Shown: positions 3,285 through 61,477 of the stretch, in pieces
Layout: each line of letters starts with the position of its first letter
Numbering within the stretch: position 1 is the stretch's first letter
Assembly: GCF_000519045.1 (NCBI RefSeq)
Contig: NZ_KI912532.1
Span: forward strand, 3,277,867 to 3,341,866
Source: Dechloromonas agitata is5
GTDB taxonomy: Bacteria; Pseudomonadota; Gammaproteobacteria; Burkholderiales; Rhodocyclaceae
DNA: 64,000 nt
Direction: 5' to 3'
Made by a program: the position numbers and the translations under genes
Notes under the pieces: model-generated
Database searches by the model: none
What the model was told of the DNA's origin: nothing
What the model saw: the letters and a program-made list of their open reading frames with translations, nothing else

Positions 3285-5210
3285 TCAGCGTTTGGCGAAG
3301 AAATCGAGCACGACCTGCAATTCGCGGGTGCGCTTCATCGGCGGCAGGCTTTGCCAGATCTTGCGGCCGTAGGGCTTGGAAATCAGTCGCGGGTCGCAGA
3401 TCATCAGCACACCCTTGTCGTTCTCGTCGCGGATCAGACGGCCGGCCCCCTGCTTGACGTTGATGACGGAGCGCGGCAACTGGTACTCGATGAAGGCGTT
3501 GCGGCCCTCACGTTTCATCTGCTCGATACGGGCCGACAAGACCGGATCGTCGGGCGGCGCGAAGGGGATCTTGTCGATGACGACCAGCGACAAGGCTTCG
3601 CCGCGCACGTCAACGCCTTCCCAGAAGCTCTGGCTGCCGACCAGGATGGACGCGCCGTGGTTGCGGAAGCGTTGCAGCAGGTCGTTCTTGCTGCCCTCAC
3701 CCTGCACCAGTAACGGGATATCCAGGCCTTCGTCCTCGATCTTCGCTTTCAGGAGTTCGTGCGTGCGGCGCATGGCGCGCAGGCTGGTGCACAGGAAGAA
3801 AGCGCCGCCCTTGGCCGCCTTGACGGCCGGCCAGGCAGCTTCAACCACCGTGTCGGTGTAATTCCAGGCATTCGGGTCGGGCATGCCGAGCGGCGCGTAG
3901 AGAACGGCCTGCTCGCCGTAGTCGAAGGGGCTGTGCCAGCAGGCGGAATCGGGGTCGCCGAGGCCGAGTTCGGCGCAGTAATGGTGGAACTTGCCCTGCA
4001 CGGCGAGCGTCGCCGAGGTGAAGATCCAGGCCCGCGGATGGCCGCCCATCTGCTTGCGGAAAATGTCGGCAACCTTGAGCGGCGTCGAGTTCAACTGCAG
4101 CGACTGGGTAAAGGCCTCGCCCCAGCGTACGTAGCCGAGATCGGCCAGGTTCTGCCATTGGGCGAACGCCTGCTGCAGTTCGAGGGCACGCTGCCAGCAC
4201 TTCTCGATGCCCTCGGCGCGCTGGGCCTGAGTTTCGAGGATGGCGGCGAATTTGGCGACTTCCTCCTCAAGCGTTTTCAGGGCCGGGACGAATTCCGGCC
4301 GCTCCTGCAACTGCTCGTAGGAGAAACGCCCGGCATCGACACCCACCGACAGGCGCAGGTCGCGCGCCGCCTTTTCCATGGCCTTGGCGCCGCTCTGGAT
4401 ATCGAGGCAGTCGCGGGCGCTGGTCAGGCCCTCCGCCTTGGCGTCGCGCGCCAGATCGACCACCTGCGCCGTCGACACGCTGTCGCCGAAGAACAGGGTG
4501 GCCACTTCCGGCAACTGGTGGGCCTCGTCGAAGATCACCGTGTTGCAGGCCGGGAGCAGCTCGGCCATGCCCTCGTCGCGCAGCATCACGTCGGCGAAGA
4601 ACAAGTGGTGATTGACCACGACCAGATCGGCCGCCATCGCCTCCTTGCGGGCCTGCATGACGAAACATTCCTTGTAGTCCGGGCAGTCCTGGCCCAGGCA
4701 GTTGTCGCGCGTCGAGGTCACGCTGTTCCAGACCGGGGAATTTTCGTTCACCTCAAGGCACTCGGCCTTGTCACCGGTCTGCGTGGTCTTGGCGAAGACC
4801 GAGATGCGACGGGCATCGGCGGCATCTTCCTTGGTCAGGAAACGGCCGTCGGCCAGCGAGCGCTGCAGGTGGTAGGGGCAGACGTAATTGGCGCGCCCCT
4901 TGAGCAGCGCGATCTTGACCGGCGCCTTCAGGATGTCGCGCACCATCGGCAGGTCCTTGTTGAACAGCTGATCCTGCAGGGTCTTGGTGCCGGTGGAGAC
5001 GATCACCTTGCCGTTCGACTGCAGCGCCGGCACCAGGTAGGCGAAAGTCTTGCCCGTACCGGTCCCCGCCTCGGCGATGAATACCGAATTGTTCTGGATG
5101 GCGGCGGCGATGCGCTCGGCCATCTCGACCTGCTGCTGGCGCACGCGATAGCCGCCAATGGCACGCGCCAATGGCCCGTCGGGCGAGAAGATTTCGGGGA
5201 GTGAAGGCAA
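3285..5210 (-). CDS. dinG: ATP-dependent DNA helicase, DinG/YoaA family
   Basis: This 641-residue superfamily 2 (XPD-like) helicase has Walker A GTGTGKT at residues 50-56, DEAH at 228-231, and the C-terminal helicase motifs SQSFWEGVDVRGEAL and GAGRLIRDENDKG. Four cysteines at about 111, 171, 176 and 182 lie between motifs I and II, where XPD/DinG enzymes hold a [4Fe-4S] cluster. Such helicases unwind 5' overhang duplexes, D-loops and R-loops during repair. YoaA and DinG are hard to separate from sequence alone. The start is a TTG at 5210 without a clear Shine-Dalgarno; the family N-terminus LPEIFSPDGPLARAI supports it. It is the first gene of a run to rbgA. Confidence 0.92.
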   Translation of the reverse strand: MPSLPEIFSPDGPLARAIGGYRVRQQQVEMAERIAAAIQNNSVFIAEAGTGTGKTFAYLVPALQSNGKVIVSTGTKTLQDQLFNKDLPMVRDILKAPVKIALLKGRANYVCPYHLQRSLADGRFLTKEDAADARRISVFAKTTQTGDKAECLEVNENSPVWNSVTSTRDNCLGQDCPDYKECFVMQARKEAMAADLVVVNHHLFFADVMLRDEGMAELLPACNTVIFDEAHQLPEVATLFFGDSVSTAQVVDLARDAKAEGLTSARDCLDIQSGAKAMEKAARDLRLSVGVDAGRFSYEQLQERPEFVPALKTLEEEVAKFAAILETQAQRAEGIEKCWQRALELQQAFAQWQNLADLGYVRWGEAFTQSLQLNSTPLKVADIFRKQMGGHPRAWIFTSATLAVQGKFHHYCAELGLGDPDSACWHSPFDYGEQAVLYAPLGMPDPNAWNYTDTVVEAAWPAVKAAKGGAFFLCTSLRAMRRTHELLKAKIEDEGLDIPLLVQGEGSKNDLLQRFRNHGASILVGSQSFWEGVDVRGEALSLVVIDKIPFAPPDDPVLSARIEQMKREGRNAFIEYQLPRSVINVKQGAGRLIRDENDKGVLMICDPRLISKPYGRKIWQSLPPMKRTRELQVVLDFFAKR

Positions 5211-5418: not shown

Positions 5419-6255
5419 ATGACCCCCCTGAACCCATCCCCCGAGCGCCATGATTTGCTGGCTGCCAGCACGGCCGAGACAACGCCCCTGGCTGTCGCCT
5501 CCGTCGCATCACGGGCAAAACCCGGCAAGAGCCGCTGGCCGGCCCGTCTCGATCTGTTGCAAAGCCTCTCCGGCCTGCTGCTCGCCCTGTTCCTGATGGC
5601 CCACATGGCCTTCGTGTCGTCCATCCTGATCAGCCACGACGCTTTCTACACCGTCGCCCGCTTCTTCGAAGGCGCCTACTTCCTCGGCAAGCCCTACCCG
5701 ATCCTGGTTTCCGGCGTCGTCGCCGGCGTCCTGGCCCTGTTCGTCGGCCACGCCTGGCTGGCGCTGCGCAAATTCCCGGCCGGCTTCCGCCAGTACCGTG
5801 CCTTCGTGGCACACAAGAACCGCCTGCGCCACGGCGACACCTCGATGTGGTGGCTGCAGGTGTGGACGGGCTTTGCGCTGTTCTTCATGGCCACCATCCA
5901 CCTCTACCAGATGCTGATGAACCCGTCGCTGATCGGCCCCTACGAGTCGGCCGACCGGGTGTGGACCGGCAACCTGTGGCCGCTCTACCTGTTGCTGCTG
6001 TTCGCCGCCGAGCTGCACGCCAGCATCGGTCTCTACCGCCTGGCGCTGAAATGGGGCTGGTTCGATGCCAGCGATCCGAACCGCAGCCGACGCCGGCTGC
6101 GTTGGGTCAAGCACGGCCTGAGCGCCTTCTTCATTACCCTCGGCCTGGTGACGCTCGGCGCCTACATCGACCTCGGCCGGGCCCATGCCGAGCATGCCGG
6201 CGAGCGTTACGTGCCGGCCAGCCAGAGCGCCCCGGCCGCCAGCGGAAGGCACTGA
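5419..6255 (+). CDS. frdC: Fumarate reductase diheme cytochrome b subunit FrdC (Wolinella type)
   Basis: This 278-residue membrane anchor of quinol:fumarate reductase has five hydrophobic helices. Axial heme ligands are H62, H111, H161 and H200. Each equals the Wolinella succinogenes FrdC ligand (44, 93, 143, 182) plus 18. The two functional glutamates of that enzyme, E66 (quinol site) and E180 (proton E-pathway), align with E84 and E198 at the same offset. The start was placed at ATG 5419, with GAGG 8 bp upstream, rather than at an in-frame GTG at 5380. The N-terminal 40 residues extend beyond the Wolinella protein. It is followed by frdA after 1 bp. Confidence 0.93.
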
Positions 6256-6256
6256 C

Positions 6257-8236
6257 ATGGAAACCATCCACACCGATGTCCTGGTCATCGGCGGTGGCCT
6301 GGCCGGTTTGCGGGCCGGGCTGGCGGCCCGCAAGCGCGGCCAACAGGTCATCATCCTCAGCCTGGTGCCGCCCAAGCGCTCGCATTCCGCCGCCGCGCAA
6401 GGCGGCATGCAGGCCAGCCTGGGCAATGCGGCACGCGGCGGCGGCGACAACGAGGATGTGCATTTCGAGGACACCGTGCGCGGCAGCGACTGGGGCAACG
6501 ACCAGGAAGTCGCCCGCATGTTCGTGCATACCGCACCGAAAGCAGTACGCGAACTGGCCGCCTGGGGCGTGCCGTGGAACCGCGTGCAGCAAGGGCCGCA
6601 TGCGGTGGTGATGGACGGCCAGCGCGTCACGCTGACTGAAAGCGCCGCAGCGCATGGCCTGATCACCGCCCGCGATTTCGGCGGCACCAAGAAATGGCGG
6701 ACCTGCTACGTCTCGGACGGCACCGGCCACGCCATGCTCTACGCCGTCAGCGACCAGACCATCGCCGCCGGCATCCCGGTGCATGAGCGCATGGAAGCGG
6801 TGGCGCTGATCCACGACGGCGGGCGCTGCTATGGCGCCATCGTCCGCAACCTGATCGACGGCCGCCTGCTGGCCTATGTCGCCCGTGCCACCTGCATCGC
6901 CACCGGCGGTTTCGGACGCATCTACCAATCGACCACCAATGCGGTGATCAACGAGGGCATCGGCGCCGCCATCGCGCTGGAAACCGGCGTCGTGCCGCTC
7001 GGCAACATGGAGGCGGTGCAGTTCCACCCGACGGCCATCTTCCCGGCCGGCATCCTGGTCACTGAAGGTTGTCGCGGCGATGGCGGCCTGCTGCGCGATG
7101 TGGACGGCCACCGCTTCATGCCGGACTACGAGCCGGAGAAGAAGGAACTCGCCTCACGCGACGTCGTGTCGCGGCGCATGGAGGCCCACATCCGCAGTGG
7201 CAAGGGCGTCGCCTCGCGCTACGGCCCGCACCTGTGGCTGGACATCACCCTGCTCGGCGCCGCGCATATCGAACACAAGCTGCGCGAGGTGAAGGAAATC
7301 TGCCACTACTTCCTCGGCATCGACCCGGCCAGGCAGTGGATACCGGTGCGCCCGGCCCAGCATTACTCGATGGGCGGCATCCGTACCGACGCCCACGGCC
7401 AGGCCTACGGCCTGCGCGGCCTGTTCGCCTGCGGCGAGGCGGCGTGCTGGGATCTGCACGGCTTCAACCGACTGGGCGGCAACTCGGTGGCTGAAACCGT
7501 GGTCGCCGGCATGATCGTCGGCGAGGCCATCGCCGATTTCTGCGCTTCGCCGGACGGCGACATGCAGGTATCGACCGCCCTGGTGCGCGAAACCTGGGCA
7601 AAAGCCAGCGCCGAATTTTCCGCCATCGCCGACAACCGTTCGAGCGAGGACGCCAACCAGTTGCTGCGGCGCATGCAAACCCTGATGAGCGAACAGGTCG
7701 GCATCGTGCGCCAGGGGGACCAACTGGCCGCCGCCGTCGCCGAACTGGAACAGTTGATCCAGCGCTGCCGGCAGGTTGGCCTGCGCACCACGCGGGCAGG
7801 TGCCAATCCGGAACTGACCACTGCCTGGCGCCTGCAGCGCATGCTCAAGCTGGCGCAATGCGTGGCCTACGGCGCACTGCAACGGACCGAAAGCCGCGGG
7901 GCCCATTTCCGCGAGGATTACCCGCGGCGCAACGACGCCGAGTGGCTGAAGCGCACGCTGGCCACTTGGCCGGATGGCGAGCCGACCCGCCCCCGCCTCG
8001 ACTACGAGGCACTCGACGTGGCGCGTATGGAATTGCCGCCCGGCTGGCGCGGCTATGGCGCGCGCGACGCCATCGAGCACCCGGCCACCGCCCTCCGCCA
8101 GGCCGAAATCGAGGCCATCCGCGCCAGCCTGGGCAACGCCGACCGCCATGCCGTGCAGCAGGCACTGATGCCCTACCGCCATTTGCTGCCCCCGCACCTG
8201 CGCGGCCTCAATGCCCGCATCGGAGAAGAAAGATGA
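6257..8236 (+). CDS. frdA: Fumarate reductase flavoprotein subunit FrdA
   Basis: This 659-residue flavoprotein catalyses fumarate reduction, or succinate oxidation in reverse. The dinucleotide-binding motif [13 protein letters not shown] is at residues 12-24. The covalent FAD histidine lies in [10 protein letters not shown] at H43, the same number as in the Wolinella enzyme. Active-site segments include HPTAI and [11 protein letters not shown]. The ATG at 6257 is preceded by GGAAGG with 7-bp spacing and begins 1 bp after the frdC stop. The gene overlaps frdB by 4 bp (ATGA). It is soluble, bound to the membrane through FrdB and FrdC. Gene order C-A-B is that of epsilonproteobacterial operons. 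Confidence 0.96.
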
Positions 8237-8991
8237 TTCCCCTGCTCCGTCGCCGGCCGACTGCCGGCCAGCCCCGCCGCCTGACCCTCAGCATCCTGCG
8301 CTGCAACCCGGCCGACCCGGCCAGCGTGCCGCACCTACAGGACTACGAACTCGACGAGGCGGACGGCATGACGCTGTTCATCGCCCTCAACGACATCCGG
8401 GCACACCAGGACGGCTCGCTGCAGTTCGACTTCGTCTGCCGTGCCGGCATCTGCGGCAGTTGCGCCATGCTGATCAACGGCCGCCCCGGGCTGGCCTGCC
8501 GCACGCTGACCCGCGACCTCGGCGACCACATCACCCTGGCTCCGCTGCCCTATTTCGAGTTGATCGGCGACCTGTCGGTGAATACCGGGAAATGGATGCG
8601 CGGCACCAGCGAGCGGCTGCAAACCTGGATCCACAGCACTACGCCGGTCGATCTCGATGCCCTGGAAGCCCGCATGGAGCCGGCCGAGGCCGAGGCCATC
8701 TACGAACTCGACCGCTGCATCGAATGCGGCTGCTGTATCGCCGGCTGCGGCACGGCGCAGATGCGCGAAGGCTTCGTCGGCGCCGTCGGCCTCAACAAGA
8801 TCGCCCGCTTCCGGCTCGACCCGCGCGACCAGCGCAGCGATGCCGATTTCTACGAACTGATCGGCGACGACGACGGCGTGTTCGGCTGCATGTCACTGCT
8901 CGGCTGCCACGACCTGTGCCCCAAGCAACTGCCGCTGCAGACGCAGATCGCCTTCCTGCGCCGCAAGATGGCCGCCCTCGGCCTGCGCTAA
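8233..8991 (+). CDS. frdB: Fumarate reductase iron-sulfur subunit FrdB
   Basis: This 252-residue protein carries electrons from the FrdC hemes to the FrdA flavin. Ligands for the [2Fe-2S] cluster are C69, C74, C77 and C89. Those for the [4Fe-4S] cluster are C162, C165, C168 and C229. Those for the [3Fe-4S] cluster are C172, C219 and C225. Their spacing matches the Wolinella FrdB cysteines throughout. The start at 8233 overlaps the frdA stop, indicating coupling. The N-terminus carries a short basic extension ([13 protein letters not shown]) before the ferredoxin domain. It converges on the malonyl-CoA decarboxylase gene with only 3 bp between stops, so no private terminator is visible. Confidence 0.96.
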
Positions 8992-48605: not shown

Positions 48606-49700
48606 TCATATTGCCCCCAGCGGACGGATTGCTCCCAAGGAGCGCATGCGCGTCAGGTTGTAGGCGGCCATGGTCAGCACGAACAACTGATCGACCTTCT
48701 CCAGTCCGCGCACCATCACCTGGCGTATCGGCCCAATGAACTTGGCCCAGCCGAATCCCTGTTCGATGAGTTTGCGCTTTTGCTGGGAGATCGCGTAACC
48801 GTCACTGCCGGCAATGTCGTCCGGCACGGCAGAACGGCGATGGCTGGTGTTCTGCGCCACATGGGGAATGACATTCAGTTCGATGAGTGCCGCAATGAAT
48901 TCCTGGGCATCGTAGCCCTTGTCCGCGCCAAGGGTGATTTCAGCCGTTTCGCCGGCGACTTGGCGGGCATCGGCGATCAGGGCCTTGGCAACTTCCCGCT
49001 CGGCATAGCCATCGGCCGTGGTCACGACCGCACTGGCAATGAGTCCGTGGCGGTTGTCGCTCAAGGTGTGTCCCATGTAGCGCAACTCACTGGCGGTATT
49101 GCCCTTGCGGTACAGTCGGGCATCCGGGTCGGTACGCGAGGCGTGGGTGTCATTGCTGCGTGACTGGCCCTTGAAATTGCCGCCGCCTTCATCATCTCCG
49201 CCGTCTTTGCGCAGGAAACTCTTGTGTCCCGCCCAAGCCTGGATGAGCGTGCCGTCGATACTGAAATGTTCGCCTGATAGCCAGTTCTGCTTCTCGGCAA
49301 TGGCCAGTACCGCATTGAAGAGTTCGATCACGGCATCGTGGGCAATCAGGCGTTCGCGATTCTTGGTGAAGACGGTGGGCACCCAGACTGCATCGTCCAT
49401 CGATAGGCCGATGAACCAGCGAAAGAGCAGGTTGTACTGGGTCTGCTCCATCAATTGCCGTTCCGAGCGAATGCTGTAGAAGATTTGCAGCAGCATGGCA
49501 CGCAGGAGTTTCTCCGGGGCAATGCTGGGGCGACCGCCTTTGACGTCGGCGGCATACATGCCGCTGAGCAGGGGCTCGATATCCTTGAGCGCCAGGTTCA
49601 CCATCGCCCGGATCGGCCGCAACGGGTGCTGCGCCGGCACAAAGTCGTCCAGGCGACGCATCGTAAACAAACTCTCGGTGAAGGTGTCGGCTCCGCGCAT
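48606..49700 (-). CDS. IS5-family transposase
   Basis: This 364-residue DDE transposase of the IS4/IS5 superfamily has an N-terminal DUF772-like helical domain (FVPAQHPLRPIRAMVN; ALLQIFYSIRSERQLMEQ-like region near residue 75). The catalytic aspartates are in FSIDGTLIQAWAGHKS (near 147) and TLGADKGYDAQEF (near 258). The glutamate region is QKRKLIEQGFGWAKFIG near 320. The frame is intact, so the element may still be active. It is oriented with the rml operon, so transcription could read outward into rfbB. Confidence 0.93.
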   Translation of the reverse strand: MRGADTFTESLFTMRRLDDFVPAQHPLRPIRAMVNLALKDIEPLLSGMYAADVKGGRPSIAPEKLLRAMLLQIFYSIRSERQLMEQTQYNLLFRWFIGLSMDDAVWVPTVFTKNRERLIAHDAVIELFNAVLAIAEKQNWLSGEHFSIDGTLIQAWAGHKSFLRKDGGDDEGGGNFKGQSRSNDTHASRTDPDARLYRKGNTASELRYMGHTLSDNRHGLIASAVVTTADGYAEREVAKALIADARQVAGETAEITLGADKGYDAQEFIAALIELNVIPHVAQNTSHRRSAVPDDIAGSDGYAISQQKRKLIEQGFGWAKFIGPIRQVMVRGLEKVDQLFVLTMAAYNLTRMRSLGAIRPLGAI

Positions 49701-60778: not shown

Positions 60779-61477
60779 ATGCTCAACGCCGACCAAGCCG
60801 AACTCGACAAATTTGGAGATCTTGCCCACCGCTGGTGGGATCCGAACAGCGAATTCAAGCCGCTGCATGACATCAACCCCCTGCGTCTCGACTGGATTGA
60901 CCAGAGCGTTGGGCTAGCCGGCAAGCGCGTGCTTGACGTTGGTTGCGGTGGCGGCCTGCTGTCCGAGGGAATGGCGGCACGCGGCGCCAATGTGACCGGC
61001 ATCGATCTTTCGGAAAAGCCGCTCGGCATCGCCCGGCTGCATCTGCTGGAAAGTGGCCACAAGGTCGATTACCGCAAGATATCCGCCGAGGCGCTGGCCG
61101 ACGAAATGCCTGGCGCATTCGATGCGGTGACCTGCCTCGAAATGCTGGAACACGTTCCAAATGCTTCCAGCATCATCACCGCCTGCGCGCGCTTGGTCAA
61201 ACCGGGTGGCCAGGTTTTCCTGTCGACGCTGAACCGGACACCCAAGTCCTACCTCTTCGCCGTACTGGGCGCCGAGTACATCCTGAAAATGCTGCCCAAG
61301 GGTACCCACGACTATGCCAAGTTCATCAAGCCTTCGGAACTGGTGCGCTGGGCCAAGCTGGCCAACCTGGAACCGGACGAGCTGGTCGGCATGAGCTACA
61401 ACCCGCTGACCCAGCGTTATTCCCTGAGCCGCGACACCAGCATCAATTACCTGATGCGTGCCACGCGGCATGCTTGA
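60779..61477 (+). CDS. ubiG: 3-demethylubiquinol 3-O-methyltransferase
   Basis: This 232-residue class I methyltransferase carries out both O-methylations in ubiquinone synthesis. It has [20 protein letters not shown]-like N-terminal residues ([20 protein letters not shown]), the SAM motif [16 protein letters not shown] near residue 55, [11 protein letters not shown]-type motif II and [11 protein letters not shown]. Its presence shows that the host makes ubiquinone, although the fumarate reductase in this window is of the menaquinol type. It overlaps gph by 8 bp. Confidence 0.95.

Follow-up and report, generated by a model that had tools for sequence, protein, structure and literature searches.

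A Wolinella-type diheme quinol:fumarate reductase operon in a betaproteobacterium predicted to make both ubiquinone and menaquinone

We analyzed a stretch of 64,000 nucleotides (the window) and found that its frdCAB operon, by sequence comparison, is confirmed as encoding a Wolinella-type diheme quinol:fumarate reductase (QFR), with an agreement far beyond chance. The host is predicted from its genes to be a dual-quinone organism, with menaquinone in addition to ubiquinone, and frdCAB very probably functions as a menaquinol:fumarate reductase, with ubiquinone used by the succinate dehydrogenase SdhCDAB and Men-pathway menaquinone used by the QFR. An earlier note on this DNA, whose interpretation is partly supported overall, had seen a mismatch between a menaquinol-linked QFR and the ubiquinone marker ubiG in the same window. 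Because a men pathway is encoded in the genome, this mismatch dissolves: neither the enzyme nor its dual-quinone setting is out of the ordinary. The features of the window are as follows (profile scores here and below are bits/curated cut-off).

3285-5210, minus strand: yoaA-type DNA repair helicase (NF053712 891/680), divergent neighbor of frdC and not part of the enzyme
5419-6255, plus strand: frdC, diheme cytochrome b subunit, 278 aa (2bs2_C match, NF010072)
5602-5604, 5749-5751, 5899-5901 and 6016-6018, plus strand: codons of the FrdC heme ligands H62, H111, H161 and H200 (residues read and aligned)
5668-5670 and 6010-6012, plus strand: codons of the FrdC glutamates E84 and E198 (residues read and aligned)
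6257-8236, plus strand: frdA, flavoprotein subunit, 659 aa (2bs2_A match, NF006383)
6383-6385, plus strand: codon of the FrdA FAD histidine H43 (residue read)
8233-8991, plus strand: frdB, iron-sulfur subunit, 252 aa (2bs2_B match, NF010071), its reading frame overlapping that of frdA by 4 bp
48606-49700, minus strand: transposase-like ORF (named from reading), beside nucleotide-sugar and glycosyltransferase-like genes at about 22-48 kb
60779-61477, plus strand: ubiG, ubiquinone O-methyltransferase (TIGR01983 276/103), present as the earlier note had said

Residues 36-255 of FrdC aligned with residues 18-237 of Wolinella succinogenes FrdC (2bs2_C) over 220 residues without a gap (E 7.9e-72), at the constant offset of +18 that had been proposed for its key histidines and glutamates. 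In a multiple alignment, H62, H111, H161, H200, E84 and E198 fell on Wolinella H44, H93, H143, H182, E66 and E180, which we take to be the four axial heme histidines, the quinol-site glutamate (E66) and the proton-path glutamate (E180). These positions read HHHHEE in 27 of 30 aligned relatives; the exceptions were G069 (E180 to L), G078 (E66 to G) and G031 (HQYH, with E66 to H). The closest solved chain to FrdA was Wolinella FrdA (2bs2_A; 929 bits, versus 357 for E. coli SdhA), and H43, previously named as the covalent-FAD histidine, was in register with the Wolinella FAD histidine. Similarly, FrdB matched Wolinella FrdB (2bs2_B) at 349 bits with the [2Fe-2S], [4Fe-4S] and [3Fe-4S] cysteines aligned, although the earlier description of these cysteines as in register needs one small correction: those of the first cluster are shifted by +12 and those past a one-residue gap by +11.

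The subunit assignments agree with these alignments. All three NCBIfam equivalogs of the Wolinella-type QFR scored over cut-off (NF010072 376/187 for FrdC, NF006383 1114/663 for FrdA and NF010071 411/264 for FrdB), bearing out the architecture that had been read from the residues. FrdC is a single anchor of the PRK13553 family; we found no separate SdhC and SdhD anchors at the frd locus, and the SdhC and SdhD models fit another locus (C1:2236 kb). The window shares with the Wolinella FrdCAB structures (2bs2, 1qlb, 1e7p) the C-A-B order, the heme ligands, the E66/E180 equivalents, the FAD histidine at position 43, the cluster cysteines and the gapless FrdC core; it differs in the longer N-terminus of FrdC and in a host that adds ubiquinone and a canonical SDH. 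The Desulfovibrio gigas-type QFR (5xmj), by sequence also of the diheme class, was clearly farther than Wolinella in all three subunits (FrdC 100, FrdA 758 and FrdB 314 bits). Canonical SdhCDAB (E. coli 1nek type) has SdhA and SdhB homologous to FrdA and FrdB but differs in its two single anchors, and the host has its own separate copy. By homology with the Wolinella enzyme, fumarate reduction by frdCAB would be electroneutral. No FNR-like box with two or fewer mismatches was found in the 300 bp upstream of frdC in the window, and no FNR site was common to the 25 relative stretches scanned.

We searched the host genome (3.63 Mb, one contig) for men, futalosine-pathway and rquA genes. MenD (430/244), MenB (404/343), MenA (208/102) and UbiE (424/378) scored over cut-off, the frames of MenD and MenB were intact, and MenF was marginal (225.7 versus 224.75). 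The best name for MenE was o-succinylbenzoate-CoA ligase (TIGR01923; 266 bits, under the cut-off of 330), directly before menF, and that for MenC was o-succinylbenzoate synthase (TIGR01927; 121 bits, under the cut-off of 130.6), directly after menB. These data give gene-level support to the proposal that the host also makes menaquinone. The host men genes lie at at least four separate places (MenD, MenA, menB-menC and menE-menF), whereas PMC11707229 describes one single locus in Pseudomonadota. MqnC was absent from the genome, and on this absence we rejected a futalosine pathway. RquA was likewise absent: the best host match was 9e-9, versus 2e-35 to 3e-90 in 21 genus genomes, and under NF038261 (cut-off 175) host UbiE scored 48 bits and the best host match 47. 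We therefore rejected rhodoquinone in the host, an alternative that the earlier note had offered, and with it a rhodoquinol-linked reductase. The outcome that the same note had set against its own reading, namely no low-potential quinone pathway together with a FrdC placed among SQRs, was not what we found.

The genome also encodes a separate canonical sdhCDAB, with SdhA at 765 bits (FrdA scored 705 in the same search), SdhC at 135/52 (TIGR02970) and SdhD at 123/42 (TIGR02968). The third homologue in the genome, weaker at 388 bits and below its cut-off, is probably L-aspartate oxidase. Pairing ubiquinone with SDH and menaquinone with fumarate reductase has a precedent in E. coli. For D. aromatica, PMC3914697 describes UbiC alongside the classical MK pathway, and its survey lists both quinones.

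From this gene content we propose the following working of the enzyme. Menaquinol would be oxidized in the membrane by FrdC with its two b hemes; the three iron-sulfur clusters of FrdB would relay the electrons to the covalent FAD of FrdA, where fumarate would be reduced to succinate. In this facultative betaproteobacterium of the Azonexus/Dechloromonas group, the classical Men pathway would supply menaquinone to frdCAB, and ubiquinone (ubiG, ubiE) would serve the separate SdhCDAB. We infer that menaquinone is actually made and that frdCAB runs towards fumarate.

We then compared FrdC with quinone genes in 76 genus genomes. FrdC gave 27 matches at E <=0.001, 25 of them strong; the FrdC-positive count drops G031 (degenerate, E 1.8e-22) and G036 (49 residues, E 5.9e-4) and keeps G047 (a stretch with frdC but neither frdA nor frdB), G108 (truncated where its contig ends) and G004 and G050 (distant FrdCAB). 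MenD was over cut-off in 49 genomes, MenB in 48, MenA in 63 and MenF in 48. RquA was found in 21 of the 76 at E 2e-35 or better, the best match elsewhere being no better than about 5e-11, and NF038261 identified it in 13 of the 13 scanned. In a high-quality set of 51 genomes (>=90% complete, <=5% contaminated), the 18 with FrdC comprised 8 with men only, 2 with men and rquA, 3 with rquA only and 5 with neither (G006, G008, G010, G045 and G046); the 33 lacking FrdC comprised 19, 6, 4 and 4, respectively. FrdC showed no association with low-potential quinone genes in this set (13/18 FrdC-positive versus 29/33 FrdC-negative genomes, Fisher p 0.25), nor in all 76 genomes, where the trend was opposite in direction (p 0.056). 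MqnC was absent from all five genomes with neither. MqnC-like matches under cut-off, lying inside long frames in G013 (C42; 320 bits) and G033 (C57/C61; 217 bits), are probably other radical-SAM proteins.

The scores of MenE and MenC under cut-off, the marginal MenF, the scattered men genes, the lack of association between FrdC and quinone genes and the lack of an FNR-like box before frdC count against the menaquinol reading. Could frdCAB instead use ubiquinone, as a second SDH or a ubiquinol-driven fumarate reductase, with menaquinone serving other enzymes? Consistent with this idea, the five genomes named above carry FrdC without MenB/MenD, RquA or MqnC, and dN/dS values of 0.04-0.14 in the three pairs measured show purifying selection on their frdCAB, as in two men-bearing pairs (0.04-0.19). 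However, the host has a separate canonical SdhCDAB together with men genes, and FrdC keeps all six key residues. The potential of ubiquinone is also unfavorable for fumarate reduction; PMC11707229 puts it at about +110 mV. We consider ubiquinone use very unlikely. We give still less credence to the idea that the host men genes do not amount to a functional pathway and that menaquinone comes solely from a salvaged precursor via MenA and UbiE: such salvage would fit the marginal MenF and the scores of MenE and MenC under cut-off, but MenD and MenB are far above cut-off in intact frames, and menB-menC and menE-menF are adjacent pairs.

A recent acquisition of the operon from an epsilonproteobacterium is scarcely credible as well. 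For each of the three subunits the best match among solved structures is a Wolinella chain, but that ranking reflects which structures exist. A scan of genome contigs gave 344 relatives, of which the best 80 were kept, so that most possible epsilonproteobacterial rows lie outside the tree. Among these best 80 of 344, taxon-named records were Beta- or Gammaproteobacteria or just Proteobacteria/Pseudomonadota, and a few were labeled only 'bacterium'. We built a rapid maximum-likelihood tree from 71 selected FrdA rows (SH-aLRT support, midpoint root, an epsilonproteobacterial side of two chains). The window belonged to an Azonexus/Dechloromonas clade of 20 rows (100), whose sister group was formed by 12 rows of Zoogloea type (97); 68 rows, comprising the window and all non-PDB rows and nearly all labeled Pseudomonadota, stood apart from Wolinella and 6n56 (99). 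On this tree, with its few outgroups, we rejected recent epsilonproteobacterial transfer. Of the epsilonproteobacterium-like donor suggested earlier, what is left is that an old transfer between lineages may have occurred. Betaproteobacterial relatives (Zoogloea, Azonexus hydrophilus, Rubrivivax and Thiobacillus records) have all three subunits in common with the window; FrdA identity to the Zoogloea/Azonexus rows is 75-88% (Zoogloea about 75-77%, genus about 78-84%), and the quinone gene background varies between genus species.

The position of the operon is conserved as well, which likewise counts against a recent acquisition. Of 22 stretches fetched from relatives, 18 had yoaA no more than 6.1 kb away from frdC, and this gene marks a conserved genus frd locus; the four stretches with no yoaA nearby were G080 (another family), G004 and G050 (distant FrdCAB) and G105 (contig ending near frdC). 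Together with the FrdA tree, this neighborhood indicates that the operon has for the most part been passed down at a single locus, with some losses. Beside yoaA, it persists whether a relative carries men genes, has rquA alone or lacks both. No methyltransferase conserved beside frd was recognized among the clustered neighbors.

Several loci depart from this pattern. The more distant FrdCAB of G004 (L082) and G050 (L132), genus members, lies away from yoaA and outside the genus FrdA clade and is probably a separate acquisition. G031 retains a degenerate lone frdC by yoaA (L126:8505-9227; NF010072 68 versus 187) carrying the substitutions given above, with frdA and frdB gone; this locus shows what frd decay looks like. 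G047 (L079) has frdC and neither frdA nor frdB in a 19-kb stretch, and its genome has men and rquA genes. G019 has two frdCAB copies in one assembly (L017 and L028; L171, L181), a MAG in which mixing is possible.

The five FrdC-positive, high-quality genomes with neither men nor rquA formed, with G059 (77% complete), one six-row FrdA subclade (98). We found an intact menA over cut-off in four of the five, the exception being G006 (200 contigs). MenA dN/dS was 0.17-0.33 in eight non-independent pairs lacking MenB/D and RquA, versus 0.10-0.24 in six men-bearing pairs; the lone MenA is still selected, perhaps under a somewhat looser constraint. A precursor scavenger would be expected to retain MenA while lacking DHNA synthesis. 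L. plantarum has no other part of the pathway and produces MK-6 and MK-7 on being supplied with DHNA (PMC10746273). The retention of menA in most of these genomes suggests, from gene content, a quinone swap or precursor salvage in genus relatives. Counter to salvage, MenA persists in G022 and G031, neither of which has a working QFR, and G006 lacks MenA but carries a QFR. In G039, G101 and G054, which are FrdC-positive with rquA only, a MenA-like protein (L223, L224, L231) is about 48-53% identical to that of the host, versus 70-89% elsewhere in the set, and is possibly another prenyltransferase.

A broader reading, which we hold tentatively and think rather doubtful, is that within one genus one diheme QFR locus has outlasted a change of quinone: the enzyme would use menaquinol in some species, rhodoquinol where men was lost and rquA is present, and, in the A. 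hydrophilus group, where MenB/MenD, RquA and MqnC are all missing, either menaquinol from scavenged 1,4-dihydroxy-2-naphthoate via the retained, selected MenA or ubiquinol. For Ca. Thiosymbion oneisti, PMC8269255 proposes that rhodoquinone replaces the missing menaquinone for fumarate reduction; a Thiosymbion record occurs among the best 80 of 344 relatives. Our literature search found nothing joining Zoogloea, rhodoquinone and fumarate, nothing joining Azonexus, menaquinone and fumarate reductase, and nothing on the quinone of A. hydrophilus.

For the window itself, these results change little: the enzyme is a known one, and a dual-quinone host has a printed precedent in D. aromatica (PMC3914697). 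The genus-level quinone pattern matters more than the window's enzyme, and raises the modest question of whether diheme QFRs swap one quinone for another. PMC11707229 suggests asking whether the gain of a low-potential quinone accompanied the gain of fumarate reductase. The answer from the genes of this genus is that the reductase is fixed at one locus, while quinone genes come and go, unassociated with it. Culturable Azonexus strains thereby offer a convenient system in which to look for quinone promiscuity, or for salvage of a precursor, with a diheme QFR.
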